64,000 nt of DNA from Paraniabella hibiscisoli. Its GTDB lineage: Bacteria > Bacteroidota > Bacteroidia > Chitinophagales > Chitinophagaceae. The number at the start of each line of letters is the position of its first letter. The stretch's first letter is position 1. Location of the stretch: assembly GCF_022512515.1 (NCBI RefSeq), contig NZ_JAKWBK010000001.1:744001-808000 (forward strand). The letters are read 5' to 3'. Below the pieces are notes generated by a model. The model worked only from the letters and a program-made list of their open reading frames with translations, searched no databases and had not been told where the DNA came from. The translations under genes were made by a program, and so were the position numbers. Of the stretch, positions 5,508 to 22,495 are shown one piece after another.

Positions 5508-6029
5508 CTATCCATTATTCTTTACAATCATTGTTACCATCTGTAGTAGCTGCGTTATGTAGGTCGTAAATGTATAGATCGCTACAGGGCTTATTTCATC
5601 CGCTGCTGATTGTTGAGATATTGCAGCCATCGTAAATACATGCAGCCACTTTTTCCATTTCCTAAGTGAGGCCTTACTGAAGAATGTTTTTAAATATTGT
5701 AAGGCATCCGCATACTCCACTGACTCTGTTGCTGCCTGTTGTTGCGTCAATAGGCTGCGGTATAGTTGCCGGTTTTTATGAAGCAGGCAAGCGGCTTCTA
5801 TTAACAGTTCTAATTGCCCGGCATAATGCAGGGCATTGCCGGGGCTGCCCCTGTGCCAGCCATACTTTTGTTTGAGTGCTGCCCTGCAGAATGCGTCAAA
5901 GGCTTTGGTATGTTCTGCAGGTGTGGCGTAGTTGAAGAATTCTTGTAATATTCCTATTGGCGATGCTTTTAGTGGATTGCCTTTGCAGGTTGCGGCAATG
6001 CGGTTTAGGTTAATAAAGTGTTTTTTCAT
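5508..6029 (-). CDS. Hypothetical helical protein
   Basis: The family is not recognised. The 173-residue protein from the ATG at 6029 (MKKHFINLNRIAATCK) has no signal peptide or membrane helix and looks mostly helical, with a basic middle (KQKYGWHRGSPGNALHYAG) and a hydrophobic C-terminus. The frame is open for 26 codons upstream of 6029, but that part overlaps a dispersed repeat (6067-6104) and is probably untranslated. It lies in a run of orphan minus-strand genes (5.5-7.4 kb) that includes an RNase-like protein. That neighbourhood is suggestive of a mobile or conflict-related function, but nothing in this protein shows it. Confidence 0.45.
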   Translation of the reverse strand: MKKHFINLNRIAATCKGNPLKASPIGILQEFFNYATPAEHTKAFDAFCRAALKQKYGWHRGSPGNALHYAGQLELLIEAACLLHKNRQLYRSLLTQQQAATESVEYADALQYLKTFFSKASLRKWKKWLHVFTMAAISQQSAADEISPVAIYTFTTYITQLLQMVTMIVKNNG

Positions 6030-6066
6030 GGTGGTTGATTTTATTGTTTGATGCTTCATTAGTATC

Positions 6067-6104
6067 GTCATCCCGAGCGCAGCGTAGTGTAGTCGAGGGA
6101 TCTC
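6067..6104. repeat. Dispersed imperfect palindrome (copy 1 of 3)
   Basis: The stretch reads CGTCATCCCGAGCGCAGCG and ends AGTCGAGGGATCTC; the two ends are partly complementary (CCCGA against TCGAGGG). Related elements lie at 15143-15183 and 28415-28473. All three are intergenic or pre-start. Sequences of this kind are scattered through many Bacteroidota genomes and likely form REP-like hairpins. Confidence 0.5.
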
Positions 6105-6753
6105 CACCTTTTCCTAGTAAATAATCACTACGATGAAAGTGTCTCTATAATTAGCGTCAATGTTGCCCTATCCGAATGGAATTCATCCAGACCGACTTTT
6201 CCATATTAATAGGTTGTAGCATTGCAATACCCCATCAGCCTTTCATGATCAAATTTTCTTTGTCCTTTTTTGCTTGTCCAAAAAGAACGAAAAAAGACCC
6301 CGGCGGCACTTACGGGCCTGCCGCCGGGATGGGTGCTACTATCAACAGTGAACATAGTGGTGTGTCCGCCCCGTTGTACCTACCGTGCTATGGGCGGACG
6401 CTGATCTTATGAATAGTTACTTACGCACGTCTTGGCATTGTTGGTGGAAAGGATGAATAGCGCATAGGCCGGTATCTATCTCCATCAACTACCAATGCCC
6501 TTTACATAACAGATGCAGGACCGGTCTTGAAAAAATGGCGTTAAGAAAACAATTGCGTAAGCCGTTAAAAAGCCGCCACTGTCCGAGCCCGTGGGGACTT
6601 TTTAACTGCTTTACACTAAGTAAGCGTCCCGAACGTTCGGGACAGGCATTTTAGCGAAACGAAGGTCATTTTTAGCGAAGGCATCACAGCCTTGTCCCGA
6701 AAGCATTCGGGATGGCTCAACCTTTTTATCCCCGCCTGACCTCCAATGATATT
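6105..6753. other. Gene-free stretch with several inverted repeats
   Basis: I see no convincing gene here. It holds several palindromic pieces. GTTAAAAAG and CTTTTTAAC flank a GC-rich centre at about 6564-6610. TCCCGAACGTTCGGGA near 6627-6642 is a perfect 16-base palindrome, and CCCGAA and TTCGGG pair around 6696-6711. A block near 6290-6330 (CCCCGGCGG against CCGCCGGG) can also fold. Short open frames across it have no protein-like composition. Confidence 0.5.
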
Positions 6754-6939
6754 TTATTTTGTAGTCGGGCAGGAAGAAAAAGGTTGAAAAAGCAAATAAT
6801 AGTAGCTGTCAGCTTCACTTAAAACCTTCATTCCATCCAAAGTACTGAAGGCCTTCTTCGAACCTTCGGATACCGCAACGGGATGCGCATTCCTACAAGC
6901 ATCTGCGATCCTAAACATACTGCTTGCAAGCAGCAGCAT
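6754..6939 (-). CDS. Small orphan reading frame coupled to the RNase-like gene
   Basis: A 61-codon frame starting at the ATG at 6939. Its start overlaps the stop of the preceding gene as TGATG, the arrangement used for translational coupling. The product has a hydrophobic N-terminus (MLLLASSMFRIADACR) and a polar tail rich in Ser and Tyr, and I do not recognise it. The overlap is the main support; composition alone would not persuade me. If the upstream gene is a toxin-like nuclease, a small partner would be plausible, but an immunity role is only a guess. Confidence 0.3.
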   Translation of the reverse strand: MLLLASSMFRIADACRNAHPVAVSEGSKKAFSTLDGMKVLSEADSYYYLLFQPFSSCPTTK

Positions 6940-7427
6940 CAAGGCGAGCCTGAACTGTCATGCATAGTATTCCCAATAATCCCCGGAAACGCTGTAACAA
7001 TCCGCCCAGCGGCGTCAGCGATTATGGTAACAACCTGCGTAGCACTCCCACAAACATCATAACCCACAATACTACCCGCCTCCCAAACCCTTTGGTAATT
7101 GCAGCTTTGCGGCACCGGCTGTGCGGTGGCGGCAAAAGCCTCTTTGATGATGGCAACAATGCGCTCCACGCCAATGGTAAACTTACCCGCGCCGGGGTGG
7201 CGGGCCATGGGCGCATAATGCCGCTCCAGTATATGCGCCAGAGTGGAGGCGCTTAAGTACCAGTTATTACGCAATAGCTTTTTATGCTGTTTGAGTGGCA
7301 GCTGGTAAAAAATATCTTTATGCAATTGCTGTAGCCATTGCTCGGTATCGGCAATGAGAAATAAAATACGCAGCCATTGGGCCTCGTTAAACGGGTGGTG
7401 TGGCGTAGGTGTAGTAACGGCGTTCAT
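6939..7427 (-). CDS. Possible BECR-fold RNase-like domain protein
   Basis: Starts at the ATG at 7427 and gives about 162 residues. The second half matches the general pattern of small Barnase/EndoU/Colicin/RelE-fold nucleases found at the ends of polymorphic toxins. It has a helix with the histidines LAHILERHY, a glycine-lysine-phenylalanine turn GKFTIGVERI, then beta strands VGYDVCGSATQVVTII and the closing motif GRIVTAFPG. Here the domain stands alone with no secretion leader, behind an N-terminal helical region rich in Trp, Gln and Leu. I infer a nucleolytic or conflict role from motif layout only. A strongly structured leader (7492-7581) precedes it, and a small frame overlaps its stop. 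Confidence 0.5.
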   Translation of the reverse strand: MNAVTTPTPHHPFNEAQWLRILFLIADTEQWLQQLHKDIFYQLPLKQHKKLLRNNWYLSASTLAHILERHYAPMARHPGAGKFTIGVERIVAIIKEAFAATAQPVPQSCNYQRVWEAGSIVGYDVCGSATQVVTIIADAAGRIVTAFPGIIGNTMHDSSGSP

Positions 7428-7491
7428 AACAGGTGGTTTTAAAAGCACCCGCACAAAAAAGGCGTGGCGCTCAACTTACCGTAACTGAGGC

Positions 7492-7581
7492 CCTCGGAAG
7501 GCCCTGGAACAGATAAGAGAGCTCACGCCTAGGCCGTGAGCTATTCTACTTATCATCTTGTTCCATTTGAAATTTCCGAGG
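7492..7581 (-). promoter_or_regulatory. Nested multi-stem hairpin in the leader of the RNase-like gene
   Basis: Four consecutive exact inverted pairs nest around one centre. They are CCTCGGAA/TTCCGAGG (7492-7499, 7574-7581), GGAACA/TGTTCC (7506-7511, 7559-7564), GATAAG/CTTATC (7512-7517, 7549-7554) and GCTCACG/CGTGAGC (7521-7527, 7535-7541). Together they make a rod about 90 nt long with small internal loops. The 3' edge on the minus strand is about 65 bp upstream of the ATG at 7427. It could be a regulatory leader RNA or an operator-like DNA element. The symmetry prevents assigning the strand from sequence alone. Confidence 0.6.
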
Positions 7582-7674
7582 TTTCAGCTACAAGACTCAA
7601 AGCGAATGCTTCAAATATTTTTATGAAGTGATCGCAAATATAAATTCTACAACTAAAGTACAACTATTTTTTAA

Positions 7675-10143: not shown

Positions 10144-11168
10144 TTATTTCCAAATTTTCACTTTTGAGGCGTCATAGAAAAATAATTCGAGTGGATTCTT
10201 TTTATTCTTCCTGTTCTCCTTAAATGAGTTTGCTTTCTTTATTATTTTCTTATTATCATTACTGTCAGGATCTCCATAAATACTAATAAATAGTTTTGAC
10301 ACCTTACCTTTTGGAATTAGGTTTAATATGTGGTCGTCGTTGTCTGCCAAGGAGTGGCCATATATAAAAAGTGTATTTCCTATTGCTGAAAAACTTCTAT
10401 ATCCTCTAGAAAGATAGTTACTATGTACAATTTTCTCTTTTTTCTCTTTGCTTGTTCCCTCTGAAACAAAAACGGGAAAAAAGCTTTTGTCAAGAGCATT
10501 CCTTATTTGTTCAATAAGTTTGATGCCAGTATTTACCCAAGTGTATTTTTGAAGCTCAGCACCCTCGTCAAATATGTGAAGAGCTCCATGTAAATAAAAA
10601 TATTTTGTGTGTTCGTCTTTTCAATATCCCAAGTGACATATTGTGATTTGCCATTGTCGGGTGTTCTAAATCCATCATCATATTTTATTTTATCATTCTC
10701 TTGGTTGTAATGCATGATTACCCAATAAAGTAGTAAATCATAATTCAACGTATAAATGTTTTGAAAATGATTCAGGAATGAATTGGCTAAAAAATATTCG
10801 TTTTCAGAAATTTCACTTGGATTTTCGGGATGATTTGATGCAATTGTAGTAACCAATAAATTTTTCAATTCAACTGCATCCTGTTCAAGCTCGGCAATTA
10901 ACCTTTTCCTGGCAGGCAAATAAACCTTTAAAACTCCTGCTGCATTAACCAAGGATTTCATTACTAACTCAAAATCTTTAGTTTTAAGTTTTTCAAATAC
11001 TTTCTTAATATCAGGATTTAAATTCTTGAAGTTTGCCCTATCGTAGAGCGAGTCGTATCTGAATGTATCCGGCTTCCAAGAAATACTGAAACCATTTCCA
11101 AGTAACAAATGTTTTTTGTCGCCAGAAATTCTCAAAGCCTCATCAAATGAAATTAGTTTAGTTGGCAT
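10144..11168 (-). CDS. DUF4917 (SIR2-like) protein, frameshift
   Basis: The N-terminal block HLLLGNGFSISW followed by FRYDSLY matches DUF4917, a family related to the SIR2-like NAD-binding fold (GNGFS resembles the nucleotide loop). Further blocks are IYTLNYDLLLYWV and, after frame repair, YLHGALHIFDEG and YGHSLADNDDHIL. These resemble the later nucleotide-site motifs of SIR2-like proteins. The frame breaks near 10597 where TTTTT should be TTTTTT; the full protein is 341 residues. SIR2-like proteins in defence islands often deplete NAD+ after phage sensing, but for this subfamily that is inference. A copy of the cassette repeat lies just upstream (11229-11356), so this is the leftmost cassette of the array. 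Confidence 0.75.
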
Positions 11169-11228: not shown

Positions 11229-11356
11229 TTATAAATACTTGCACCGCCTACTCATAGTTTGCTCTAATTATTTAGTGTTGTTAATAGCTATCGGGCAATC
11301 TTTGGTGTTTCCATTGGCTTCCCACAGCAGTTTTGCTAATGTACTTATTTTTCGTG
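11229..11356 (-). repeat. Cassette-array repeat, copy 1 (long form)
   Basis: Long copy of the array repeat, 60 bp upstream of the DUF4917 start. It holds the left arm TATAAATACTTGCACCGCC, the middle GTTGTTAATAGCTATCGGGC, and the core CAGCAGTTTTGCTAATGTAC. It is on the same strand sense as all other copies. To its right the array is interrupted by tandem repeats. Confidence 0.85.
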
Positions 11357-11358
11357 TC

Positions 11359-11491
11359 TTCGTCAAGCTCAGACTGACATTCGTGCCCGATTTTAGTTCG
11401 GTCGGGCAGGCTTCGTCAAGCTCTCCAAAGGAATCCGTTCGACAGACTGACATTCGTGCCCAAACCAGGTTCGGCCGGGCAGGCTTTGTCA
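11359..11491. repeat. Two imperfect direct repeats, period 73 bp
   Basis: GACTGACATTCGTGCCC occurs at 11372-11388 and again at 11445-11461, each followed by a GG[T/C]CGGGCAGGCTT block (11400, 11473). CTTCGTCAAGCTC also occurs twice (11359, 11411). Related pieces recur at 18140 and 19967. No protein-like frame crosses it. It is probably part of a dispersed intergenic element. Confidence 0.6.
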
Positions 11492-11889
11492 TGATCTCCG
11501 GGGAGTCTCCAACAACGTTTTTCGAACCTTTGAAAACGACAACATCGTATCGACATTGGAGCCAAATAAAATCACAGTAATAAAGGATCCATGCAAGTAC
11601 CCATCCCTAATAACAAAAAATCAAAAAAGATGAACAGGAATAAGCATCCCGCTGTAGGATAAAGCAGTAATAAGAAAAACTTCCGTATACATTTTTATGG
11701 GTAAGAACTATACCTGTACAATTGCACCAGGAATTAGTCAAAAACCTGATCAACCAATCAGTTTTAACCACCAAATTGGTCAGCTTTTTTAGGAGGGTCA
11801 ATCCGTTTTAATCATCCAATGTAGTTTTATATACATTTTGCCAGGTCTATTACTCCTCTCAGCCTGTAAAATACAGGTCCGGAGCGGTC

Positions 11890-12281
11890 TTTTACTGGTT
11901 TGCCGGGGTTGTACAACCCCATTTTTGCGGTTCCGAACCCCAACGCCGGGGTTATGCAACGCGTTGGTTGGCGTAATGCACCGCACTGGCCGGGCGCTGC
12001 ACTTATCCGGATAGGTTCAATACTCATCCACACCTATACAACATATATCTGTACATATAGCGAACCCCGCCGATGCGGTTCAATACCCTGCGGTTGGGGT
12101 TATACAACCTATCCTTCGGGGCAAACAACCGGGGTAGCGGGGTGTAACACCGGGCAGGACAGGTTCCTTATCCATCCAGACCTATAAAACATATATCCGG
12201 ACATATAGCGAACCGCGCCGGTGCGGTTCAATACCCTGCGGTTGGGGTTATACAACCTATTTCTCGGGGTAAACAACCGGA
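11890..12281. repeat. Tandem repeat tract with many short palindromes, 148 bp period
   Basis: Two 108-bp units, 12025-12132 and 12173-12280, are nearly identical and start 148 bp apart. Shared pieces include ACATATAGCGAACC, GCGGTTCAATACCCTGCGG and TTGGGGTTATACAACCTAT. A more diverged third unit precedes them (about 11890-12024). Short palindromes recur, the clearest being GGGGTTGTACAACCCC near 11907-11922. Frames are open on both strands across the tract but only encode the repeat, so I do not call a gene. The 11492-11889 stretch to the left holds nothing I can identify. Confidence 0.7.
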
Positions 12282-12289
12282 AAGAAGCA

Positions 12290-12332
12290 ATAAAAAGCCC
12301 CGCCGGAAGTGGATGATACTTCGCTGACGGGG
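12290..12332 (-). terminator. Rho-independent terminator
   Basis: On the minus strand an arm beginning CCCCGTCAGCGAAGT pairs, with small mismatches, with ACTTCCGGCGGGG after a 7-nt loop. CTTTTTATT follows. It sits 26 bp past the stop of the 12358-12839 gene and should end its transcript. Confidence 0.7.
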
Positions 12333-12357
12333 TATTCCCAGTTTTCCAACACTCCGG

Positions 12358-12839
12358 TTAACCAGCCGGATTTTCTGTGGCAGGCTTACCTGCTTTCACA
12401 AAAACTGTTTCAGTCCGGCCCACTTTTCTTCGTAGCCCGGCTCATTGCTGCCTGCCTTATAAGCGGTAAAAGCATAATCGGTAAGGGCAGATTGATAATT
12501 GTCGTAATCGTGCAGGGTTTTGGCATTGTTCAACCGGTCTACCAGGTTGTTCAACCTCGAAATAATGCCTTCGTAATTGGTGCGACTCTGGTAGTCAGCA
12601 TTAAACTCGCTCCAGTCTACTTCGGTGGCCGATAAGCTCGTCTGGCTAAGGTTATAATCTCTAACCTTGTTAATAAACAGCTTGTTTTGCTCGTTTACAC
12701 TGCCATACTTACGCCGCTCATCGGGCGTGAGGTTAATGTTTACGGCCGTTAATACTTGTTCTAGCTGGTTGAGCGCGCTCTGCGCCTGTGCTACCTGATC
12801 TGCGCTCAGGTGCACATTGTTAAGGTTGCTGATTGGCAT
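12358..12839 (-). CDS. Hypothetical helical protein (probable frameshift at C-terminus)
   Basis: A soluble, strongly helical protein of about 160 residues. It begins MPISNLNNVHLSADQVAQAQ and continues with heptad-like runs (ALNQLEQVLTAVN, IISRLNNLVDRLNN) and a conserved-looking end HDYDNYQSALTDYAFTAYK. I have the impression of a family common in Bacteroidota, sometimes in several copies per genome, but its function is unknown. As read, it stops at 12396 after LKQFL. Adding one T in the run near 12403 extends it to KQFFVKAGKPATENPAG with a stop at 12358, directly before the terminator, which I think is correct. No signal peptide is present. Confidence 0.6.
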
Positions 12840-13012
12840 AATTTTTCATTTTTGGCCCATTTAGGTGTGAGCCGGGTTAAAAATTTGTTTTTCGGTTAAC
12901 AGGGTGCAATGTTAGCATTGCTACTGTTAGCAACTCTAATATAGAACAAAATATGAATAAGTAAAATTTAAAATTTGTATAAAATTACCTGGAGGTTAGG
13001 CGAGGACGGTTA

Positions 13013-13100
13013 GCCTGGTTGGTTGCGTACCTATGGCACGCGTAACCTGGCTATTTTGGCTTTCTACCAATGGTTGTCCCTGACGGGACCTAAACAACAG
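13013..13100. repeat. REP-like palindromic element
   Basis: Within the 390-bp gene-free stretch 12840-13229. GTCCC tgac GGGAC at 13076-13089 is a tight hairpin flanked by TTG and CAA. Just before it, GGTTGCGT and ACGCGTAACC (13020-13048) form a weaker pair. Sequences of this style (CTACCAATGGTTGTCCC) are frequent in Bacteroidota intergenic DNA. The rest of the stretch is AT-rich with no gene. Confidence 0.5.
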
Positions 13101-13170
13101 GAATATCCGTGCTGTGTTGCCGGAATATACTTTTAGACATTAAAACATATTTTGCTTTTTTGCAGTTGCA

Positions 13171-13203
13171 GGTGTTTGTCACCAGCAAGCCTTGATCGGT
13201 TGG
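13171..13203. repeat. Dispersed short repeat TCACCAGCAAGCC (copy A)
   Basis: GTTTGTCACCAGCAAGCC followed by a CGGTTGG block. Three relatives lie at 23721-23756, 25274-25336 and 27488-27534, all between genes and in the same orientation. Confidence 0.55.
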
Positions 13204-13229
13204 TAGTCCCAACCATGGCGAAAAAATCA

Positions 13230-13958
13230 TTAGAACTTAAATAGCTCATCAATATTCATATTATCGTGCAAGCCATTATCCTTCTCAAATACAATTTTTC
13301 GATCTTTCAATGAATACCAGACTTTCCAATCCAAAGGCTTATGGTAAATTCCAAACCTGTCATTATCGAACCATTTGTTGGTCCTTACAAGTTTATAAAT
13401 AGAATCATACCACCACCAGTTACGTTTATCAAAAAGCTTAATAGTTTGAGATTTGTCCTCTATTAAAAACGTAACATACAAACTGGTGACCAGATCAGTC
13501 TTTTCAATATATAGTTTCGCGGATTTCTTTTTATCTCTTGACGTTTTGAATGGATAATCTATTCTGAATTTAAATTTGCTTTCTATAACTTCCGTATACG
13601 CTCTTTCGAACACAGAGTTGTCCCAGCTGTATTCATTACTTAATTGAAGCATACAATTATGAATAGTATCAAGAAAATATTGATACTTTTCCTGTTGATT
13701 GAGGCTTAAGTATTTTTGATAAATAAATTCAGTTGCTATCAATTTCAACGAACCGTCAGTCCAGGTTCTATCCCAAATTTTGTAATATGATGGATCAATA
13801 CTTACACGGGTTGTGTTAGGCGGCTTGTAACCATACATTTTACTTATATACAAGTCACTGATGTAATTCTGAAGAGCCCTTTCCTGCCAATACTCTGGCG
13901 AGCCGGGTAGATATTGAGTTTCTGCGTATAGAGTTATGTCCGAAAAAGGAGTGCTCAT
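13230..13958 (-). CDS. Hypothetical cytoplasmic protein in cassette array
   Basis: An uninterrupted 242-residue protein of unknown family. It has no signal peptide or membrane helix. It is rich in Tyr, Trp, Asp and Lys (for example SPEYWQERALQNYISDLYIS and KRNWWWYDSIYKL), with alternating strand-like segments in the second half (KLYIEKTDLVTSLYVTFLIE). The size and aromatic/acidic character resemble orphan immunity-type proteins, but I cannot match a named family. Copy 2 of the array repeat lies 182 bp upstream of its start, farther than in the other cassettes. Base composition is visibly more AT-rich than the flanking chromosome genes. Confidence 0.6.
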   Translation of the reverse strand: MSTPFSDITLYAETQYLPGSPEYWQERALQNYISDLYISKMYGYKPPNTTRVSIDPSYYKIWDRTWTDGSLKLIATEFIYQKYLSLNQQEKYQYFLDTIHNCMLQLSNEYSWDNSVFERAYTEVIESKFKFRIDYPFKTSRDKKKSAKLYIEKTDLVTSLYVTFLIEDKSQTIKLFDKRNWWWYDSIYKLVRTNKWFDNDRFGIYHKPLDWKVWYSLKDRKIVFEKDNGLHDNMNIDELFKF

Positions 13959-14139
13959 GATTTTAGTGTTGTTCGGGGTTTTATATCTGAAACGAAAATC
14001 GTCGGATAAGAATCTTATTAATTATTAGCTGTTACCTGAGTTATCTTTTCCCTTCGCTGAATAAAAAGGCCTTTCAGAAGGCTTATCAAATATTCTTTTT
14101 ATATACTCAAAGTTGTCGGTCATCTGTTAAGGTGCGTGC

Positions 14140-14205
14140 ATTAATGCCATCTCTGGTGTTTCCGTTGACTCTCACAGCAGTTTTGCTAATGTAGTTGTTT
14201 ATTCT
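14140..14205 (-). repeat. Cassette-array repeat, copy 2 (short form)
   Basis: Contains CTCTGGTGTTTCCGTTG and CAGCAGTTTTGCTAATGTAG. Its right end overlaps the TAA stop (14199-14201) of the next gene. The left arm seen in long copies is missing or very diverged. Confidence 0.8.
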
Positions 14206-14932
14206 ACAATAATTCTATCGATTTTATTTCCAACCGGGATTTGCCCAATTTTTTGAAAAGCATCAAGGATTTGCCGCTTTGATGTTTCAAAATCGTTATC
14301 CTGGAAATCCAGTATTGCTATTATTTCATTATTACTATCTGATTCCTTTTTGTCTTCTTCATTAGTTAATTCAGAAATGTAAGTGTCTTTAATTGACGCT
14401 GATAATATCTTTTCAATTTCTTCAATTTCGTCTTCGAGTATTTTTTCGCTACAGCATATAGTAAAGGTTAAATCAGGATAAAGTGTATAATCATATTCGA
14501 TTAAAAAATTAGCGCCGACCTGCTCTTTTGAATAAATATTTCTGGGCTTTAAATACGGTGTATAGTTTTCTGCATTAAAGTCTGTACACCATCCAAACTC
14601 AATATTTTCATTATTCCAAATATCAAGTTCGGAGCACTTTCTAAGTTCACATTTTCCAAAGGCTTCCAATAAGCTGTCGCAGGAGTGGCAAATGCAACAG
14701 GATCGGTTATATAAACAAGAGCAAATGCATAACCATCTTTATAAATGGTTTTCATGGGAAGCAAGCCTGCCGTTAATAGAAATTTAGGACGTTTGATCTC
14801 GTGCGTGACATCTAACATTAAATAAAATTTCTCTTGTAATTGTGACGCCATTACTTCCCGAAAGGAATTGGAAAAACGACCAGCCTCCTTTGTAAAAGTT
14901 GCCCACTTATGATATTTAAAATCTTCTTCCAT
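14199..14932 (-). CDS. Hypothetical acidic protein in cassette array (frameshift)
   Basis: Two overlapping frames join near 14650 by restoring one base (NLE then KCSELDIWNNENIEFGW), giving about 244 residues. The N-terminal part (MEEDFKYHKWATFTKEAG) and a beta-rich middle (KFLLTAGLLPMKTIYKDGYAF) lead to an acidic C-terminus with ILEDEIEEIEKIL and IIAILDFQDNDFE. It has no signal peptide. The family is not recognised. The acidity, size and place between two array repeats fit an immunity-like cassette gene, which is inference from context. Repeat copy 3 starts 38 bp upstream of its ATG at 14932. Confidence 0.6.
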
Positions 14933-14969
14933 AATAGAGTTGTGGTAACCTGGAAAGTACGAAATGAGT

Positions 14970-15118
14970 TTACAAATATTTACAACGCCTACCCTGATAC
15001 CGCTTTAATTGTCAATAATATTTTTATTAGCTCATAGGCAATCTCCGGTGTTTCAATTGGCTCCCAAGCAGTTTTGCTAATGTACTTATTTTTTGTAAAA
15101 CGAGATACCGTTTTCCGT
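14970..15118 (-). repeat. Cassette-array repeat, copy 3 (long form)
   Basis: Full-length copy. The left arm reads TACAACGCCTACCCTGATAC, the middle TTTAATTGTCAATAATATT, the core AAGCAGTTTTGCTAATGTAC, and the right arm GTAAAACGAGATACCGTTTT. It starts 38 bp from the gene at its left. Confidence 0.9.
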
Positions 15119-15142
15119 ACTTAAGAAGGTGTACATTCTTGA

Positions 15143-15183
15143 GGAGATTCCTCGGCTCCACTCCGTTGCGCTCGGAATGACGG
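15143..15183. repeat. Dispersed imperfect palindrome (copy 2 of 3)
   Basis: GGAGATTCCTCGGCTCC followed by GTTGCGCTCGGAATGACGG. It is related to 6067-6104 and 28415-28473. The arms CCTCGG and CTCGG/CGGAAT give partial self-complementarity. It lies between array repeat 3 and the next gene's stop. Confidence 0.5.
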
Positions 15184-15272
15184 TAGCAGGCGTTCTTCCA
15201 TCCGGGCATCGGTGGCATTAACAACTCCTCTCCGCCCCGCTTTGCCCTTACCATTTCAGGCAGCGCGTTGTT

Positions 15273-16102
15273 TCATTCCAAAATCAGTTTGCCGTCTTCT
15301 TTCAAAATTTCCTTTCCGTCTTTCATTATATAAAGTCTGATTTCGGACATACTTGGGTTTTCAACCATAGTTCGGTAAACTTTGTAAGTATAATGTTCGT
15401 TTACAAAAGTAAAAACGTGGTTTCCTCCGCTTCCTTCAAATACTTTCTCGCCATCGGTTAAAATGATATCTGGCTTTGAAGATTCTTTTTCGCCCACCTT
15501 CCAGGAAGCATAGCGGTATTTATAATTCGCTAACTCGTCAATCCGGATATGGTATTTCTTTGTTTGTATTTTGTAGGTAGGACTTACCAATGTTTTTAAT
15601 GAAGTGTGCAGGTTTTCCTTGTCTTTAATAATTAGCGTTTCCCTTAATTTTTTTCAATCTCACTCTGATAGTTTACCGCAGTTATGACGGCGTCACTATA
15701 GCCCAGCCACACAAGGCCATTGTCTAGCATAACTCCTTGCCAACCCACAGCCGACCATTGCTCCAATTTGGAATTGGCAATTTTATCAATAAGAGTGGTG
15801 TCAAACACCTCGTTGAACCGCTGTTTAAAGGTTTCTTTGTCTCTAATGGGCGGTATTGGATATTCCCTGTGTAAAGGATAATTTATTCTGTTGGCAATTT
15901 TGTCAATGTTGTTCTCTTTAAATAAAGCGATAATAGTTTTAACACGCTCAGTTTGCTCTTCGGTAAGATCTACCTGTCTTACTTGTTTGCCCGCCGTGTC
16001 AACCGGTTGTTTGTGGGTTGTTACGGTGTTTTTACTGCTGTTTTGATTACAGCTCAACAGCAAAACTGCCAGTGCTATTATTGTTAGTGTACAATGTTTC
16101 AT
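15273..16102 (-). CDS. Hypothetical lipoprotein in cassette array (frameshift)
   Basis: One gene of about 276 residues after restoring an A in the run near 15650 (SEIEK runs on into KLRETLIIKD). The N-terminus MKHCTLTIIALAVLLLSCNQ is a lipoprotein signal with Cys at 18, so the protein is exported and lipid-anchored. A Thr/Gln/Lys-rich linker and a helical segment (TEEQTERVKTIIALFKENN) follow, then a C-terminal beta-rich domain (NHVFTFVNEHYTYKVYRT). The family is not recognised. It shares its cassette with the lipoprotein gene at 16284; no array repeat separates the two. A periplasmic or outer-membrane role is expected from the signal only. Confidence 0.6.
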
Positions 16103-16283
16103 TTTGTGTTTAGTATGGGTTTCGTATGATTGCCGATGCTTTTTGGTTTTGCGTTCCGGCAGGCTAGGAACCCAAAATTGTTAATGGCCGGTTGCTTTCT
16201 CACTTTTATTTGTCCGTCCGATAATAATTAATATTTCCTGTGAACTCCTATGGTCGCCGTCCTGGTCTGTTGTTCCCCTCTCG

Positions 16284-17108
16284 TCAGTTGTCCAGTCCAT
16301 ATTTCTGTTTTGCTTTAAAATGTCCCGTTTGTTTGTCGTAAAGGAAAATATATTTTATTGAAATTCTGTCCGCCGGATTTTCAATTGTAAATGGTTTCCC
16401 ATTCTCAACGTCATACCACAAACTGTCTTTTGTATATTTTCCTAACATCAACTTTTGTCCAGTAAATACGATATCGTTGAAGCCATCTTTGTTTTCGTCT
16501 TTAAACCCAATTTTAAGTTCGTTGGGTTCAAACACAGAAAGGTCTTCGTGAGCATCATAAGTCTGAACGTCATAGTCGAAATAGCCCTCATAAACATTCT
16601 GTAAAGTGTCTGAAGATATTCTATAAATTTCGTGTCCGCCATTTCCTTTTGCTGTTGCAGTAACTGTCAATAGAAATGGGTTTTGATTTGGAAAAATTGT
16701 AACGAAGTCAAACCGTTGTCTCGATAACGATTTTACCAACCCGCCTTCTGTTGTCAAGAGTAGTCGATATTTCCAAGGATAAGTAGCCATACAACCATCT
16801 CCGTAGTCATACTCAATAAAAATGTAGTCGTTGTCCGAGCCGTAAATTTTTACTTTTTTATAATTCATGATTTTTTCGTTTGCCTTTTGAGAAGGGCTTT
16901 CGTCAACTTCAAGTCCAAAAACTTGTCGCAGGTCAGCAATGAATTTGGTAGTATCTTTTATTGTCGGAAAGTCGGCAACTTGTCTAAATACTGTATCTGC
17001 TTTTTCTTGAGTTTCTGTCACAGGTAATTTTTCGTCTTTCGGTGTCTGTTTGTTAACACAACCAAAAGTCGTCAAAGTCAAAATTATCAATATGAGCAGC
17101 GTCTTCAT
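16284..17108 (-). CDS. Hypothetical lipoprotein with FG-GAP-like motif
   Basis: Clean 274-residue frame. MKTLLILIILTLTTFGCVNK is a lipoprotein signal peptide with Cys at 17. After a charged linker, strand-rich sequence dominates (KVKIYGSDNDYIFIEYDYG, PFLLTVTATAKG). A single aspartate-rich loop DENKDGFNDIVF matches the DxNxDGxxDI calcium-binding pattern of FG-GAP/integrin-type repeats. The function is unknown. It is the first gene of its cassette: repeat copy 4 begins 51 bp upstream of its ATG, and the 15273-16102 lipoprotein follows. Confidence 0.6.
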   Translation of the reverse strand: MKTLLILIILTLTTFGCVNKQTPKDEKLPVTETQEKADTVFRQVADFPTIKDTTKFIADLRQVFGLEVDESPSQKANEKIMNYKKVKIYGSDNDYIFIEYDYGDGCMATYPWKYRLLLTTEGGLVKSLSRQRFDFVTIFPNQNPFLLTVTATAKGNGGHEIYRISSDTLQNVYEGYFDYDVQTYDAHEDLSVFEPNELKIGFKDENKDGFNDIVFTGQKLMLGKYTKDSLWYDVENGKPFTIENPADRISIKYIFLYDKQTGHFKAKQKYGLDN

Positions 17109-17158
17109 ACAATTACTGGTAACTCGAAAATATCCGAAAAGTATCGCTCATTAATTGT

Positions 17159-17297
17159 TTATAAACGCTTACAACACCTACCGATCTTTCTCTTTAATTG
17201 TTATCAATATTGTTAATAGCTACCGGGCAATGTTTGGTGTTTCCACTGGCCTCCCAAAGCAGTTTCGCTAATGTACTTATTTTCTAAAACAATATGT
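17159..17297 (-). repeat. Cassette-array repeat, copy 4 (long form)
   Basis: Carries TATAAACGCTTACAACACC, the middle TTGTTAATAGCTACCGGGC, and the core AAGCAGTTTCGCTAATGTAC. Its right end is 14 bp from the stop codon of the next gene. Confidence 0.9.
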
Positions 17298-17310
17298 GGC
17301 TACAGCTTCG

Positions 17311-18027
17311 TTATGCTCGCAATATTTTTTCCGCAATGGCTAAGCAGTTTTCCAGAGTCCCGATTGTTCCCATATTGTCAGTTTGAAGTTTGTAAAGCCT
17401 GTTTGCAATATTATGTTTATCAGGGTTTGTCTTCAATAAATCAAATACTTCAGGAACATAACTTTTGTATTCATCCCTGGGAGCAATATCGTTAATACCC
17501 AGAGGATCCCAGTCAGACCAAAGGATGTCATCAATTTTTTTATAAAGTAAAAAATCCGAGTTGGTTGTTAAATTGTTCCTGAATTTCTTATTGCCGTTAA
17601 ACACCAGAATAGTGGAGCGAACCTCTTCTTCAAGCCCTGTATCATCAAAATATGCTGCTGTATGTAGTGCCAGACTTGCAATATGATGCCCACTGTCACT
17701 ATCGAATGGTGCAGGGAGCCCCGATGCATTGTAAGTTACTTTGGCAACAAGTTCTGCAAGTCTTAAATAATTGTCCGGCTTATAATCTTTATTGCTGAGG
17801 GCAAACGTTCTGATTTGGGTAAATTGTTGATGCGCTTCTTTCCACCGATCTTTATTATCAATTATTGAAAACAGGTTGGTAACCGAAGATGGATTATTTT
17901 CTACAAAATCGTTAAAACGGGATAAAACAAGCCCTGCCCAACCTGGCCTTATGTCGTTCGGTAACCTTTGAAAAATTTCTTGTCCGATTTTGATGTTAGT
18001 CTTTAGGTCGTAAAGTTCGGTATTCAT
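17311..18027 (-). CDS. Immunity-like protein, C-terminus resembling DUF1871
   Basis: Clean 238-residue cytoplasmic protein. The first two thirds are helical (KIGQEIFQRLPNDIRPGW, NYLRLAELVAKVTYNASG). The last part reads ILWSDWDPLGIND, then DEYKSYVPEVFDLL and LENCLAIAEKIL. A WDPLGI stretch followed by a DEY...Y..EV..LL helix is the pattern of DUF1871-type proteins, which are often linked to polymorphic-toxin immunity. That resemblance covers only the C-terminal 70 residues and is judged by eye. It lies between array repeats 4 and 5; copy 5 is 24 bp upstream of its ATG. Confidence 0.55.
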   Translation of the reverse strand: MNTELYDLKTNIKIGQEIFQRLPNDIRPGWAGLVLSRFNDFVENNPSSVTNLFSIIDNKDRWKEAHQQFTQIRTFALSNKDYKPDNYLRLAELVAKVTYNASGLPAPFDSDSGHHIASLALHTAAYFDDTGLEEEVRSTILVFNGNKKFRNNLTTNSDFLLYKKIDDILWSDWDPLGINDIAPRDEYKSYVPEVFDLLKTNPDKHNIANRLYKLQTDNMGTIGTLENCLAIAEKILRA

Positions 18028-18050
18028 ACAAGTAAGATGGATGATTACAG

Positions 18051-18120
18051 CTGTTCAATTGCCTGATTAGCAGTTTTGCTAATGTAATACTTTTTATAAA
18101 ACGAGATATGGTTTTCTGTG
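18051..18120 (-). repeat. Cassette-array repeat, copy 5 (short form)
   Basis: Core AGCAGTTTTGCTAATGTAAT, then a right arm ATAAAACGAGATATGGTTTT. The left arm and the GGTGTTTCC section have been lost. A GTCGGGCAGGCTTTGT piece of the 11.4-kb element follows at about 18140. Confidence 0.8.
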
Positions 18121-18205
18121 CACGGCGAAAACAGTTTTCAGTCGGGCAGGCTTTGTAACCCTGATATATGTAACTGCAATCAACAAATCCCATGTTGGTG
18201 TCTGG

Positions 18206-18814
18206 TTACTTCGTCAGCGTCACTCCATCTCCTCGCATCCAAATGTTACCTTTTTTAAAATTCTTAATATTCTCTTCAGATCTTGTTGTCAACTTAACGA
18301 AGTGTAACTTGATTTTATCCCCTTCATTTTGGCCGTCCCAGGTTACTGACAACAAATTATTTTCGTCGATTTCGTATGTGTTGTAGTCGCCATGTATAAT
18401 ATTACCATCAATCATAAATATTAAAGAGTCGGTTTTATAGTTGAGTGGATAGTACTTGGCTATTAAGTTCGGCAGGGAAATAGCCTTAGGGAAATAGTTA
18501 TTCTTTGCTACTAAATGAATTTGTCTATCATATTTGACGCTGTCAATCTCAACGGGCTTGTAAATAACTTTTAGACTCTCCATAAGTTCTGGATTTGTAG
18601 ACACCAATAAGGAATGTTTTATAAATCGGTCATTCAAAAAATAGGCAGTTTTCCGGGCTTGCTTTCCCGGGCCAATCGTTATAAGTGTATAAACAGAGGT
18701 ATCATTTGGTATCCGCTCATGCAATTTTGAAACGTCATTTGTCTTGTTTGTTGGTGTTTGGCCAAAAATATTTGTAGGCCCAATCGCAAGCGCCAATAGT
18801 ATAAGCTTTTTCAT
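18206..18814 (-). CDS. Hypothetical secreted protein in cassette array
   Basis: Clean 202-residue frame. MKKLILLALAIGPTNIFGQT is a signal peptide, probably cleaved after FGQ, with no lipobox. The mature part mixes strands and charged loops (VYTLITIGPGKQARKTAYFL, LSVTWDGQNEGDKIKLHFV) and is not recognised. It shares a cassette with the membrane protein gene at 18979; between the two lies a different repeat type (18850-18986). Export of the product is the only solid inference. Confidence 0.6.
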   Translation of the reverse strand: MKKLILLALAIGPTNIFGQTPTNKTNDVSKLHERIPNDTSVYTLITIGPGKQARKTAYFLNDRFIKHSLLVSTNPELMESLKVIYKPVEIDSVKYDRQIHLVAKNNYFPKAISLPNLIAKYYPLNYKTDSLIFMIDGNIIHGDYNTYEIDENNLLSVTWDGQNEGDKIKLHFVKLTTRSEENIKNFKKGNIWMRGDGVTLTK

Positions 18815-18849
18815 CTTTTACAAAGTGTTTATAGGGTTTCTGCTAAACT

Positions 18850-18986
18850 TACCACCAACGTTTCGAGTATTGCCGAAGGCGGGGATTTTTAGCACTAAAG
18901 TTCAATCGAAGAACGAATGTTTGAACCTGCACAAATGTCCAATCGAAGCAAGTCAGCCCGCCTATTGCCAACCTGATGTTATAGCC
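18850..18986. repeat. Second type of cassette-boundary element
   Basis: An imperfect inverted element. One end reads CCAACGTTTCGAGTATTGCC and AAGGCGGGG; the other reads GCCCGCCTATTGCCAACC then GTTATAGCC. CCCGCC/GGCGGG pair exactly and the flanking bases only partly. The inner part carries two AATCGAAG-like direct repeats (TTCAATCGAAG, TCCAATCGAAG). The right end overlaps the stop codon of the next gene, as the main array repeats nearly do. Elements of this look are common beside accessory genes in Bacteroidota. Confidence 0.55.
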
Positions 18987-19712
18987 AGTTTTTATTTCTT
19001 TTCGTTATTAATGATGTCAAAATTAATGAAATTAGTGTCGCTGAAATGCTTGTTACAATTACATTTCCGTATTGTCTGATGTCAAGTCCGCATAAAATTC
19101 GTGTCGCAATAATTGTCAAAGCCAAACCTGCGAAAATTGTCCAGTATTTCAAATTTACGTTTTCGCTTTCTGTCTTGTCTGTCGGCAGTTTGTAAACTGC
19201 AAAAGCAATTACAAGTCCTCCAACTATTGTGCTTGAATGTTGCAAGATTTTTAAAATTGGAATTTGTCTGCCAAACAATTCAACTGTGTTTGTCAGCGTT
19301 GGAATTGTCTGCACGAAGTAACCGTGTTCGTGTGTAAAACTGTCCCAAAGTATATGTGAAGCTGCACCGATGAGAATTGAAATTGCAATTACAAACCAGT
19401 TTCTTTTAAAATGTCCGTTCCAGTCAAATTGTCTAAATGCTGAAAATCTTGATTTAAAAATGTCGGCAAGTTGTCAAACAAACTATTGCGAACGATGTCG
19501 TGAAAAATGAAAGCAAACAAAAGTCCTAACGGCAAGTCAAACCAAAAAAGTCCGTCAAGTGTATGGCTGTAATTGCTTTTAATTCTCATTCGTAAAAAAT
19601 ATTCAAAGTCCGGTGTCAAACTACCAATTACAAGTGCCGTCAGCGAAAACCATTTTTTCGGCAAGTATGTTAGAGGTAAAACTATTGCTGGATGTGAGAA
19701 TGTAAATGGCAT
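18979..19712 (-). CDS. DUF4184-type membrane protein (frameshift)
   Basis: About 244 residues after restoring one A near 19437 (FLNQ then RFSAFRQFDWNGHFKRNW). The N-terminus MPFTFSHPAIVLPLTYLP with early histidine, the SLTPDFEYFLR segment and the later SHILWDSFTHEHG are the signature of DUF4184, relatives of the YdjM/LexA-regulated membrane proteins with conserved His/Asp residues that suggest metal binding. Several membrane helices follow (GGLVIAFAVY, YWTIFAGLALTIIATRIL, VIVTSISATLISLILTSLI). The exact role is unknown. It sits in the same cassette as the secreted 18206 protein, and repeat 6 is 86 bp upstream. Confidence 0.8.
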
Positions 19713-19797
19713 TTTTTCGTATTTTCTGTCTGTTTACGGGTCGTCCTAAAATTGGCTATAACTCAGAAATATGCAAAACAAAGATCATGATTAGTCG

Positions 19798-19957
19798 TTT
19801 ATAAACATTTATAAATACTTACAATGCTTTCCAAGTCTGCTTTAATTGTCAATAATATTGTTAGTAGCTATCGCGCAATCTTTGGTGTTTCCATTGGCTC
19901 CCAAAGCAGTGTTGCTAATGTACTTATTTTTTGTAAAACAGGATACGGTTTTCGGTA
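19798..19957 (-). repeat. Cassette-array repeat, copy 6 (long form)
   Basis: The most complete copy. The left arm is TATAAATACTTACAATGC, then TTTAATTGTCAATAATATTG, GGTGTTTCCATTGGCTCCC, the core AGCAGTGTTGCTAATGTAC and the right arm GTAAAACAGGATACGGTTTT. It ends 39 bp before the next stop codon. Confidence 0.9.
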
Positions 19958-19995
19958 TTTAATTGCCTTCGTCAGGCTCAGGCTGACATCCGTTT

Positions 19996-20873
19996 TTATT
20001 CTTCCCATTTATCAATCAGTTCAAATTTATTGTCAATTAACATTTGTTTAAATTGTGTTCTTGTCAAGCTGTTTCCAAGTCTATAATGAAAATGGTGATA
20101 ACCCAACTCCAAATTGTAAAAATCTCTTGTTTGCTCATAACCTAGCTCAATTATATTTCCGATAAAATCACGGAATACACCCTCGTCTTTAGTATGTAGT
20201 TGTATTTTTTGTGGGCGTCAAGTGTTAAGTTAGTCTCCCGTAGCAGAGAGTGGACTACGATATCTAAGTAGCCATTTTCAAGAGTATTTATCTTTTGAGT
20301 TTTAAGAAAGTCGATTACGCTATGCTTGTCAGTGAAATGTTTTGCAACCCAAAGTTCTGTCAAATCACTTTCCCAGTAATTTCTGACATACACCCAAAAT
20401 CCATCAATCGTCGGTATGAATTCAATTGTTTTGAAAAATGTATCTATTAGATTTTGTTTAGTAAGAACCAGTTCCAGTTCAAAAACTCCATTGTCGTTTG
20501 CCCCGTAAGCAACAAAGTTTTCCATAATTAAATCATATTCGTATTCTCCTTCATCAACACTTTTAACTACCCCAATTGGTGGAATGAATTCTTTGTCTGG
20601 GTCATCGAACGGATAGGTGTAAGTTGTTGGTCGCATGTAAACATTGTCTGAGATTTTAACCAATTCATTGCTGTTATCAATTACATCAAAGTTTTCAAGC
20701 AATGAAGCTTCTGCCAGGTTATGATTTGCAAATTTATATTCAACAGATGCTTTTATTGTCTTGTCTAATGCGTCTCCCAAATGATCGCCATAAGCATAAA
20801 AGTTTCCGACAATTCCTGTTTCCGTGTCTTTTTGTCCGTCAATTAGTAAATACCAAAGTTCATTTTTTATCAT
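19996..20873 (-). CDS. Hypothetical protein in cassette array (frameshift)
   Basis: About 292 residues once one A near 20189 is restored (YNYILK then DEGVFRDFIGNIIEL). The protein starts MIKNELWYLLIDGQKDTETG and has no signal peptide. It alternates strands and helices, with two acidic loops (PFDDPDKEFIPP, VDEGEYEYDLIM), and ends LTRTQFKQMLIDNKFELID, which resembles a small helical cap. I cannot name the family. The acidity and location between two array repeats again suggest an immunity- or adaptor-like cassette gene. Repeat 7 begins 67 bp upstream of its ATG. Confidence 0.6.
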
Positions 20874-20939
20874 TCTGAAGTCCTCTTTAAAAAATGTATT
20901 GCAACTCCTGGGGACGCGAAATATTCATTTTAAAACTTA

Positions 20940-21087
20940 TGAATACTTAGGACGCTGATCCCTGTTTTTCTTAGTTGTCAATAATATATTAATAGCTATC
21001 AGGTAGTCTACTGTGTTTCCATTGGCTCCCAAAGCAGTGTTGCTAATGTACTTATTTTTTGTAAAATGAGATGTGGTTTTCCGCATT
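20940..21087 (-). repeat. Cassette-array repeat, copy 7 (long form)
   Basis: Left arm ATGAATACTTAGGACGC is diverged. The middle TAGTTGTCAATAATATATT, the core AAAGCAGTGTTGCTAATGTA and the right arm GTAAAATGAGATGTGGTTTT are well kept. It ends 13 bp from the next gene's stop codon. Confidence 0.9.
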
Positions 21088-21099
21088 TTGTAGAGATGC

Positions 21100-21413
21100 T
21101 TAAGAATGGATGATGTTTGGATTCAAAGCAACTGCCCGGTTGTAGATCTTTACCCATTTATCCAGGTCGATAGCTATTTCTTCTTCAACATCATCAAAGG
21201 AAATCCAACAACCGCAGGTTTTCGAAAGTTCAATGAGTTGGTCTATGTCAGGTTTTGAGATGATGCCTTGCCCATACTTTTTGGACCGCTCATAAAACTA
21301 TTCAATAATACATACTCTAAATTTTCCATCCATCGGGCCGAGTAACATTTTTCACTCAATTCGCTCATAAAATCAGCAAGATTTCTTTGGTCTATATTTA
21401 AGTCATTAAGCAT
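21100..21413 (-). CDS. Small acidic protein in cassette array (frameshift)
   Basis: Restoring one A near 21285 (GPKKYGQGIISKPD) joins two frames into a 104-residue protein starting at the ATG at 21413 (MLNDLNIDQRNLADFMSEL). It is acidic and helical with a conserved-looking core ARWMENLEYVLLNSF, followed by CGCWISFDDVEEEIAIDL and DKWVKIYNRA. There is no signal peptide. Size and charge are those of typical bacterial immunity proteins, but the family is not recognised. It is the smallest cassette of the row; repeats 7 and 8 flank it within 13 and 35 bp. Confidence 0.65.
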
Positions 21414-21447
21414 TGTGTAAAAAATCAATGTAATTATTTGATGATTT

Positions 21448-21521
21448 TGTCAATCCCTGGTGTCTCCATTGGCTTCCCAAAGCAGTGTTGCTAATGTACT
21501 TATTTTTTGTAAAACAACGTA
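21448..21521 (-). repeat. Cassette-array repeat, copy 8 (short form)
   Basis: GGTGTCTCCATTGGCTTCCC, then the core AGCAGTGTTGCTAATGTAC and TTATTTTTTGTAAAACAACG. The left arm is absent. Confidence 0.85.
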
Positions 21522-21569
21522 CAGAGTTCCATAATTTCACTACTATCAACTAGCCTTATTGGCTGCAAA

Positions 21570-21977
21570 TTATTGAGACCAAAAAAGCTTTTCAAATGTT
21601 CTTTTCTTCTTGACCTCTTCTTCCTTTAGGTTCTCGTATTTTATCCAGTCGTAAGTACCATGCTCGGTATGATAAACGACTACCTTATGTTGTAGTACTT
21701 CATCAATTAATCGCGTGAGTGTAACAAAACAATCATCAAGGTCGGCAATTTCATAGCTGCTTATATGTGTATGTACATCCGTCTTGCCATCTGGGGTTTC
21801 CAGACCAAATGTTATTTCGCTGTTATAGGTAGCTATCCACATTAAAAATTTACCTGAGTCGCTTTTCAAATCACACTCAAAAGAATCATCGTCATTATAT
21901 TTTACTGAAGGTAAAAATTCAGGAAAGTTTTTCGCTAAAAAATCAAAAACATATTTTGAAAATATCTTTTGCTCCAT
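21570..21977 (-). CDS. Small acidic immunity-like protein
   Basis: A clean 135-residue frame starting MEQKIFSKYVFDFLAKNFPEF. Strand-rich acidic sequence follows (SFECDLKSDSGKFLMWIATY, EITFGLETPDGKTDVHTH), then a helix DLDDCFVTLTRLIDEVL, strands KVVVYHTEHGTYDWI and a lysine-rich tail. No signal peptide or membrane helix is seen. I cannot place it in a named family, but the alpha/beta pattern and acidity are typical of contact-dependent or type VI immunity proteins. It is the right-most array gene, between repeats 8 and 9; copy 9 is 8 bp from its start codon. Confidence 0.6.
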   Translation of the reverse strand: MEQKIFSKYVFDFLAKNFPEFLPSVKYNDDDSFECDLKSDSGKFLMWIATYNSEITFGLETPDGKTDVHTHISSYEIADLDDCFVTLTRLIDEVLQHKVVVYHTEHGTYDWIKYENLKEEEVKKKRTFEKLFWSQ

Positions 21978-21984
21978 TTTTTAA

Positions 21985-22040
21985 GTATGGCTGGCCTTCC
22001 CACAGCAGCTTTGCTAATGTACTTATTATTTTAAAACAAT
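21985..22040 (-). repeat. Cassette-array repeat, copy 9 (short, terminal)
   Basis: Shortened terminal copy: CCCACAGCAGCTTTGCTAAT then GTACTTATTATTTTAAAAC. No further copy occurs to the right within the window. Confidence 0.75.
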
Positions 22041-22495
22041 TCGCCGCTCCGGTAATTTACTACTGTGAAAAACATTGCTGGCTAGGGATGTTTCAGACTT
22101 TGCGCTCGAGTGATTTCAAGGCAAAAAGTGTCAAGCCTGCATGTCAGTCCGCCTGACACAAAAATCCGCACCTGTGGCAGTTTTTATTTTTCTGTCCAAT
22201 ATTTTTCTTTTAACTATTCAGTCTTTTTAATGTCGCAACCTAATACAAATACCCGGTAAACAGGTCTGTCTATTCCGTTGGTGAACAAATACCACCCGCG
22301 GCGAAAATTGAAATGTATCTGTCAATATGGTAGCCGCAAAATATATAAAACGACAGGGTAAAGCAATACCTTTGAAGAACTGATGTGCCTGAGAAAGCGG
22401 ACATCCTGAACAGTGATAATTTTTTTATCCCGCCAAATGACGACTTGGGTATTGTTAATGTGCAGTGCTTTACAATAATCAAAGTTTAAAAATAT
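22041..22495. other. Gene-free junction with a possible decayed coding stretch
   Basis: No intact gene. On the plus strand one frame between about 22210 and 22495 reads protein-like pieces broken by several stops, for example YKYPVNRSVYSVGEQIPPAA and, last, VPEKADILNSDNFFIPPNDD up to a TAA. This could be a decayed gene at the array edge or chance. Near 22090-22160 an accessory-type intergenic element (GTCAGTCCGCCTGACAC) resembles the one at 18850-18986 in style. Confidence 0.3.

Follow-up and report, generated by a model that had tools for sequence, protein, structure and literature searches.

The way in which bacteria gather and exchange defence genes is not settled, and a row of genes in Paraniabella hibiscisoli bears on it. 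The row lies in a window of 64,000 nucleotides (contig NZ_JAKWBK010000001.1, positions 744,001 to 808,000; positions below are counted from the first letter of the window). Here, copies of one repeat separate unrelated, co-oriented accessory genes, as an earlier note on this sequence had described. The array is a real, genus-wide and unusual set of exchangeable genes, many of them for defence. A short DNA signature marks the joints of this store across the genus and is usable to find further defence and immunity genes. The preferred reading, on which confidence is evenly divided, is that gene cassettes, many for defence or immunity, are exchanged in an array found across the genus and are joined at the core of the repeat by recombination. 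The literature searched for Niabella cassettes and defense, with a limited library and limited terms, contains no description of such an array.

In the window, the pattern AGCAGTGTTGCTAATGTAC (at most three mismatches) has nine matches, at 11326, 14176, 15067, 17258, 18069, 19905, 21033, 21481 and 22004. All are on the plus strand, and 100 shuffles give no match. Three are exact, two have one mismatch and four have two. The nine matches all fall inside the nine longer copies of the earlier note, whose same-orientation series is thereby recovered. The longest open reading frames (ORFs) between the copies are on the minus strand, which agrees with the gene orientation given there; three plus-strand ORFs (108-113 aa, GTG or TTG starts) that overlap the array stretch look like shadows. 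Since the coding strand is the minus strand, the repeat reads TACATTAGCAAAACTGCT upstream of each gene, and a typical copy on this strand has the form AAAAAATAAG-TACATTAGC-AAAACTGCT.

The repeat has a core of ~27 bp and two optional modules, a left module of ~50 bp and a right module of up to ~165 bp; complete copies span about -50 to +165 from the core. In the fetched loci, nhmmer finds 56 copies; the joined set has 57, and the analysis uses the 56 whose core is better. This sample is biased by the many loci fetched round gene B, the marker gene at the downstream end of the array. The core is far more constant than the flanks. TA..TTAGC is kept in 53 of 56 copies, which is partly selection, since the copies are found by their core, and TACATTAGC is present in 21 of 21 clade-1 copies. 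This constancy means that the core needs a function under site-directed and homologous readings alike.

The unbiased count comes from the 17-letter core AAATAAGTAYATTAGCA (at most one mismatch), which has 38 matches in 11 of the 17 genus genomes. As the reversed control pattern has seven matches, a few of these could be accidental. Of the 38, 33 are on the strand of a B gene and no more than 17.2 kb upstream of it, compared with 0.25 expected under uniform placement and a 20-kb rule. The repeat is therefore concentrated in B-linked islands and is not equally common between ordinary genes, the objection that the earlier note raised against its own idea. The remaining five are in G003 (433 kb), G008 (5341 kb), G000 (the window's own genome; 713 kb), G010 (3848 kb) and at a contig end in G013. 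In the own genome (6.1 Mb), the pattern search gives 11 matches: the nine of the cluster, one at 845 kb of contig C1 and one with three mismatches at 1014 kb of C1. The profile search gives 12: besides the nine of the cluster, these are at 845 kb, 713 kb and, as a weak match, 1671 kb.

Among the family genomes drawn, clusters occur in this genus only. The 23-letter core (at most two mismatches) is found only in the own genome and G016 among 394 family genomes, a draw without N. defluvii and most array-bearing genus members. When 294 family genomes are searched with the profile, under filtering that drops weak matches, strong matches occur in the genus only and no cluster is seen outside it; 26 genomes outside the genus have a weak match or two apiece (E 2e-4 or worse). 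No repeat is found at nine B loci of six other genera (nhmmer E 1), two of which had little upstream sequence.

The gene content of the array differs between relatives when compared as the earlier note proposed. The relative named by the pattern scan is Niabella defluvii I65 (CP079215.1; genome G005), of the same genus as the window. Its locus L023 is an eight-copy array in the same place as the window array, with the same upstream gene (28628-29032, which we take to be DUF4239-like) and B. The two species carry different genes at this chromosomal place. The two arrays have two genes in common (76%; 73-96% by piece; tblastn E 1e-4). In the direction of transcription, 21570-21977 precedes 14199-14932 in the window; N. 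defluvii has the reversed order and other neighbours.

The flanks are re-paired round the repeat in several cases. Local flank scores (left/right) are compared with background medians of 12/16.5. Three of the six copy pairs with the same upstream and a different downstream ORF are clean (123/31, 116/43.5 and 70/33.5); the remaining pairs score 118/93, 20.5/45.5 and 13/14.5, the last with an ORF that is probably spurious. When the downstream ORF is the same and the upstream ORF differs, five of nine pairs are clean or nearly so (12.5/97, 14.5/58, 18/64, 38/119 and 41.5/74.5) and the others score 26/42, 86.5/84.5, 122.5/69 and 93.5/102. G012 and G003 have copies in which the core TAA serves one gene as its stop codon, with different genes following. 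Among the 24 copies with a C-type core, the left (L) and right (R) modules show no association (L+R+ 8, L+R- 3, L-R+ 9, L-R- 4; p = 1.0). Gene families F7 and F8 keep their order in G002, G006, G009 and G012, with different genes between them. In G006, ~1.28 kb with two genes stands in place of ~45 bp in G002, and the alignments of G006 with G002, G009 and G012 all stop 21 bp after the core start.

Cargo was surveyed in 14 loci through the ORFs that lie between the first repeat and B and reach 100 aa; of 110 such ORFs, 105 were used and five left out. These ORFs match 62 Pfam families. Among the 25 of the 62 that are listed are prokaryotic STING, CAP12/Pycsar TIR, putAbiC, Abi_2, AAA_13 and reverse transcriptase (RVT_1), as well as MTES_1575, Imm51, DUF4304, DUF4262, DMP19 and Cys_rich_CPCC. 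The PADLOC matches listed for array ORFs include PDC-M11A, AriA, RmrA, PtuA, AbiLi and a TIR effector. Because of the anti-phage-type matches, "defence and immunity array" is a better term than "immunity array". Judged by their family matches, Imm51, DUF4304 and Cys_rich_CPCC proteins are at most suggestive of orphan immunity against type VI secretion system effectors.

In the preferred reading, incoming genes would be joined at the ~27-bp core by recombination. The enzyme would act in trans, either as XerC/XerD-like proteins or as an enzyme since lost. The copies resemble one another over 100-200 bp, and homologous recombination between them would re-pair genes further; the right module is the probable source of an expression signal. 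In function, the array would be a reserve of exchangeable protection against phages and the toxins of neighbours. A unit is a core with one accessory gene, or a few, next to it; in the window, these genes share one orientation. Most arrays point towards B. The cassette idea of the earlier note holds for content and order, given the other genes at the syntenic site, the two reordered common genes and the re-paired flanks; the breakpoints are not confined to the core, and site-specific recombination is inferred.

Several results weigh against joining at a simple recombination site. The exchange points lie at several places in the repeat, beyond the core. In a stricter all-pairs test of left-minus-right similarity, pairs with the same upstream ORF (45) do not differ significantly from pairs with the same downstream ORF (21; p = 0.17), and the first junction count is cleaner than this test. 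In the same-upstream pairs, the right flank is raised like the left (medians 14.0 and 10.0 compared with 5.5 and 6.0). Similarity between G002 and both G009 and G006 continues 147-163 bp right of the core before different genes begin, there is no second core at the right junction of the G006 insertion, and the right module is common to different genes within one genome (score 117). In the other clade, the modules tend to co-occur (L+R+ 14, L+R- 3, L-R+ 6, L-R- 7, counted in 30 of 32 copies; p = 0.056). The PF00589 match nearest to any repeat is ~58 kb away (G012), and none is within 50 kb in the genomes searched (G011, G013 and G015 not among them), with queries that did not include BF9343_RS08045. 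A serine recombinase as the common enzyme is rejected, as PF00239 is absent from five of the nine array-bearing genomes. As the comparisons are between species, they show old and not ongoing exchange. The stricter test, the breakpoint positions, the missing second core and the traded right modules are equally compatible with homologous recombination between repeats, whether instead of site-directed joining or in addition to it.

The chief rival builds on this last point and is possible, on a tentative assessment: the repeat would be the shared promoter or leader of a defence and immunity regulon, spread by homologous recombination, and RecA recombination between leaders would shuffle the genes by chance. 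The core would then be a regulatory element, made up of an A-tract and a box resembling the -7 box of Bacteroidota (TAnnTTTG), and no dedicated recombination site. The scattering of breakpoints over the repeat fits this explanation, as does the position of the core, 29-246 bp upstream of the start in 51 of the 53 copies with an annotated downstream ORF. TAnnTTTG is present 41-60 bp upstream of the core in 13 of 32 clade-2 copies but in none of the 24 clade-1 copies, and the box in the core, expected to be TTTG, is TTAG in the copies. Also in favour of a promoter is a second motif, TATAAACG/AAACGTTT and variants, which occurs at +90 to +210 in 14 of 55 copies from both clades (13 of the 14 at +107..+132) compared with 10 of 550 background stretches; it may act as an operator, as part of a promoter or as an arm-type site. 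Crossover between full repeats leaves unexplained the 16 of 24 copies without a left or right module and the cores that supply an upstream gene with its stop codon. A further point against a shared leader is that the leader of B carries a TATATTTG of its own but no full core. If the joint is a promoter, the repeat defines a defence regulon; if it is a recombination site, an enzyme remains to be found.

The tyrosine recombinases of the genus bear on a XerCD-dependent array with the core as a diverged dif, which is improbable. pdif modules and integrative mobile elements exploiting Xer (IMEX elements) are the XerCD-dependent systems for comparison. The earlier note suggested looking for a tyrosine recombinase just outside the window; there is none, and the closest match over cut-off on the contig of the array is ~1.6 Mb away. 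In the own genome, the PF00589 matches are L120, which is closest to XerD (below the XerD cut-off), L121, which is broken and closest to XerC, and L122 and L123, which have no NCBIfam match; none is near the array. In G016, a genome in one contig, the only matches are XerD, a protein closest to XerC (below its cut-off) and a weak 57-aa fragment. G010 has XerD, a protein closest to XerC and a 457-aa integrase, and G009 and G012 have three matches each, as G010 does. Xer-type proteins could be the only tyrosine recombinases common to the genomes examined, and the ~27-bp core has the size of a Xer site. The core differs, however, from the presumed genus dif TATAATTTATATTATGTTAA, which is exact in 16 of 17 genomes and was derived from a dif consensus. 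This dif has TTATGTTAA where the core has TTAGCAAAA, and its ATAA-TTA spacing is 6 as opposed to 5. A Xer/dif identity of the core is rejected on these differences.

Decayed ends of transposable elements, or remnants of toxin genes between immunity genes, are a still less probable origin of the repeat. The repeat is longer than a simple signal and its copies are truncated to different extents, as decay would have it, but the conserved core stands amid variable flanks and the arrays are polarised towards B. No consistent reading frame is kept (by eye), on which ground a coding remnant of a toxin is rejected. One repeat copy used as query is unmatched in plasmids, and the exact core pattern is unmatched in viral contigs. 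An integron array after integrase loss (CALIN) has the cassette layout, single orientation and defence cargo seen here, and is hardly credible: the 56 copies fold no better than shuffles into attC-like structures on either strand (mean z -0.13 and -0.32), and the IntI family TIGR02249 is below cut-off or absent in all nine recombinase ORFs scanned from three genomes (G000, G016 and G010).

The earlier note likened the array to rAID or integron systems, and the array fails defining features of both, with no recombinase nearby and no attC fold. The rAID of Bacteroidales, as described in PMC12247911, combine a tyrosine recombinase, co-oriented short genes of about 100-300 codons and under 41% G+C, and conserved intergenic motifs. 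The array resembles them in its co-oriented, short, low-G+C genes, immunity-type content and conserved intergenic motif, the last being a likeness in kind that involves no comparison with the rAID motif itself. It differs in that it has no tyrosine recombinase beside it, includes anti-phage systems, ends downstream at a conserved B-C pair and has a host outside the Bacteroidales. Chromosomal integrons and CALIN share with the array the single orientation, the mostly small units that differ between relatives and the defence cargo; unlike them, the array has no integrase found, no attC fold and its repeat upstream of the gene. Vibrio integrons store phage defence. The pdif modules and Xer-exploiting elements are similar in their short site and lack of an own recombinase, whereas the site in the array is unlike the presumed genus dif and the window copies all have one orientation. 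Ordinary islands of defence and immunity genes are alike in content, variability and low G+C, but the array has a common repeat beside most units and a polarity towards one marker gene. The repeat has no Rfam match in five sources.

The marker gene B (6939..7454, minus strand; ~165 aa) is found in 14 of the 17 genus genomes, with eight matches in seven loci of G000. In the family, 7 of 117 genomes have it, each from a different genus. Gene C (5508..6107, minus strand), the other anchor at this end, adjoins B at all seven B loci of G000 and in L022, L023 and L024. A paralogous B-C pair recurs at the ends of accessory-gene islands, and outside the genus the neighbours of B look like defence genes in some loci (by eye). 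B matches no family and has no relative in the PDB (best E 0.91, a ribosomal protein), and B as a recombinase is rejected on the latter ground. Its single-sequence fold is uninformative (mean predicted local distance difference test score 42.8). The invariant residues LAHI.ERHY and RHP..GKFTI look like those of a BECR/EndoU-type RNase.

Upstream of B is a structured RNA leader with an alternative terminator (7441..7604, minus strand), supported by covariation and RNAalifold. In alignment A4 (the window and 22 relatives), the leader has 33 pairs in five helices with 93.8% of cells paired, and 18 pairs are changed on both sides. On four of five measures, none of 500 shuffles scores as high; on the fifth, 43 do. 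The fold favoured by RNAalifold excludes this one: in it, GCGTGAGCTCTCTTATCCG pairs with CGGTAAGTTGAGCGCCACGC, followed by a T-run, as in a terminator. Five sources give no Rfam match over threshold for the leader; a sub-threshold AfaR match lies beside it. Its covariation and predicted folds suggest that the leader would control B as a new leader of attenuator or riboswitch type, or else within a type III toxin-antitoxin layout.

The B leaders also contain ATAAGYAGAATAGC, which matches ATAAGTAYATTAGC of the core at 12 of 14 letters in 5 and at 11 of 14 in 6 of the 23 leaders; the other 12 have 9 or 10 of the 14 letters. Shuffles reach this level in 0-5 of 300 cases in each of the 11 leaders with 11 or 12 letters, a statistic that proves nothing, as related leaders are not independent. 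These letters sit in paired stretches (helices 4 and 5) of the leader RNA. They might be the entry site of the array itself, and they may be a coincidence. A broader proposal, rather unlikely on present evidence, is a new cassette-exchange platform with a ~27-bp core unlike attC and the genus dif, at which a housekeeping or other recombinase in trans would load anti-phage and anti-toxin genes into polarised arrays that end at a B-C pair under riboswitch-like control.

Along the minus strand, the window array begins with repeat copy 9 (21977..22054), which is without left and right modules. It is followed by a 135-aa gene (21570..21977) with no Pfam match over cut-off, the gene whose N. defluvii homologue is in another position. 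Copy 8 (21449..21529), like all nine copies, is found by both pattern and nhmmer. The gene between copies 8 and 7 (21100..21413) is frameshift-broken and is read from the sequence. Copies 7 (20993..21083) and 6 (19864..19953) have both modules and lie on either side of a 240-aa gene with no family (20151..20873). Next is a DUF4184 cassette gene (18979..19712) in two ORFs, 19389-19712 and 18979-19314, the second assigned by place; PF13803 matches 2 of the 105 array ORFs. The second gene of this cassette (18206..18814; 202 aa) has no Pfam match. Between the two genes, 18815-18978 (minus strand) holds an inverted GGCGGG/CCCGCC and a AACGTTGGTGG end, and resembles another repeat type of Bacteroidota genomes. 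Copy 5 (18047..18116) is without the right module and has the palindrome TTAGCAAAACTGCTAA. It precedes a 238-aa gene (17311..18027) with no Pfam match over cut-off.

Copy 4 (17217..17296) precedes a 274-aa gene (16284..17108), after which 15644-16102 and 15273-15590 follow with no repeat between. After copy 3 (15029..15116) is a gene in two overlapping ORFs (14199..14932), whose homologue is in another position in the N. defluvii array. Copy 2 (14143..14209) is without the left module, and the 242-aa gene that follows (13230..13958) has no Pfam match over cut-off. Anchor gene A (12396..12839; 147 aa) lies inside the array in the window and upstream of the repeats in L022, L024 and L026, and is not found in L023. 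Palindromic repeats of the GGTTGTATAACCCC type follow A in the window (11870-12330, minus strand) and in L026 (11036-11479), as judged by eye, and L026 has three 148-nt copies in tandem. Copy 1 (11284..11354; nhmmer E 1.5e-16) has its core TACATTAGC at 11335-11343. After it come a minus-strand candidate defence gene that matches DUF4917 and PADLOC PDC-S21 (10533..11168) and, between copy 1 and B, a plus-strand PADLOC PDC-S15 match (8196-8771).

With ORFs of at least 70 aa in minus-strand order, the distances from core to upstream stop and to downstream start are 248/45, 71/626, 519/178, 228/211 and 119/60 nt for copies 9 to 5. For copies 4 to 1, they are 35/168, 188/153, 5/236 and none within 900/176 nt. 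The values of 626 (copy 8) and 519 (copy 7) arise because the gene between these copies is frameshifted. The minus-strand array genes have 105-274 codons. Ten window cassette genes have 33-40% G+C, compared with 44-51% in A, B and C, and eight of ten window proteins scanned have no Pfam match over cut-off.

Several array genes are split, and so is a plus-strand gene at 3498-4873, which is in two ORFs and which we take to be mnmE-like. Frameshift errors are probably numerous in the assemblies of G000 (completeness 83%) and G005 (72%). Further along the window, 59858-60823 (minus strand) encodes a defence or retron-type reverse transcriptase, with RT_VI as its best PADLOC match (E 1.9e-62).

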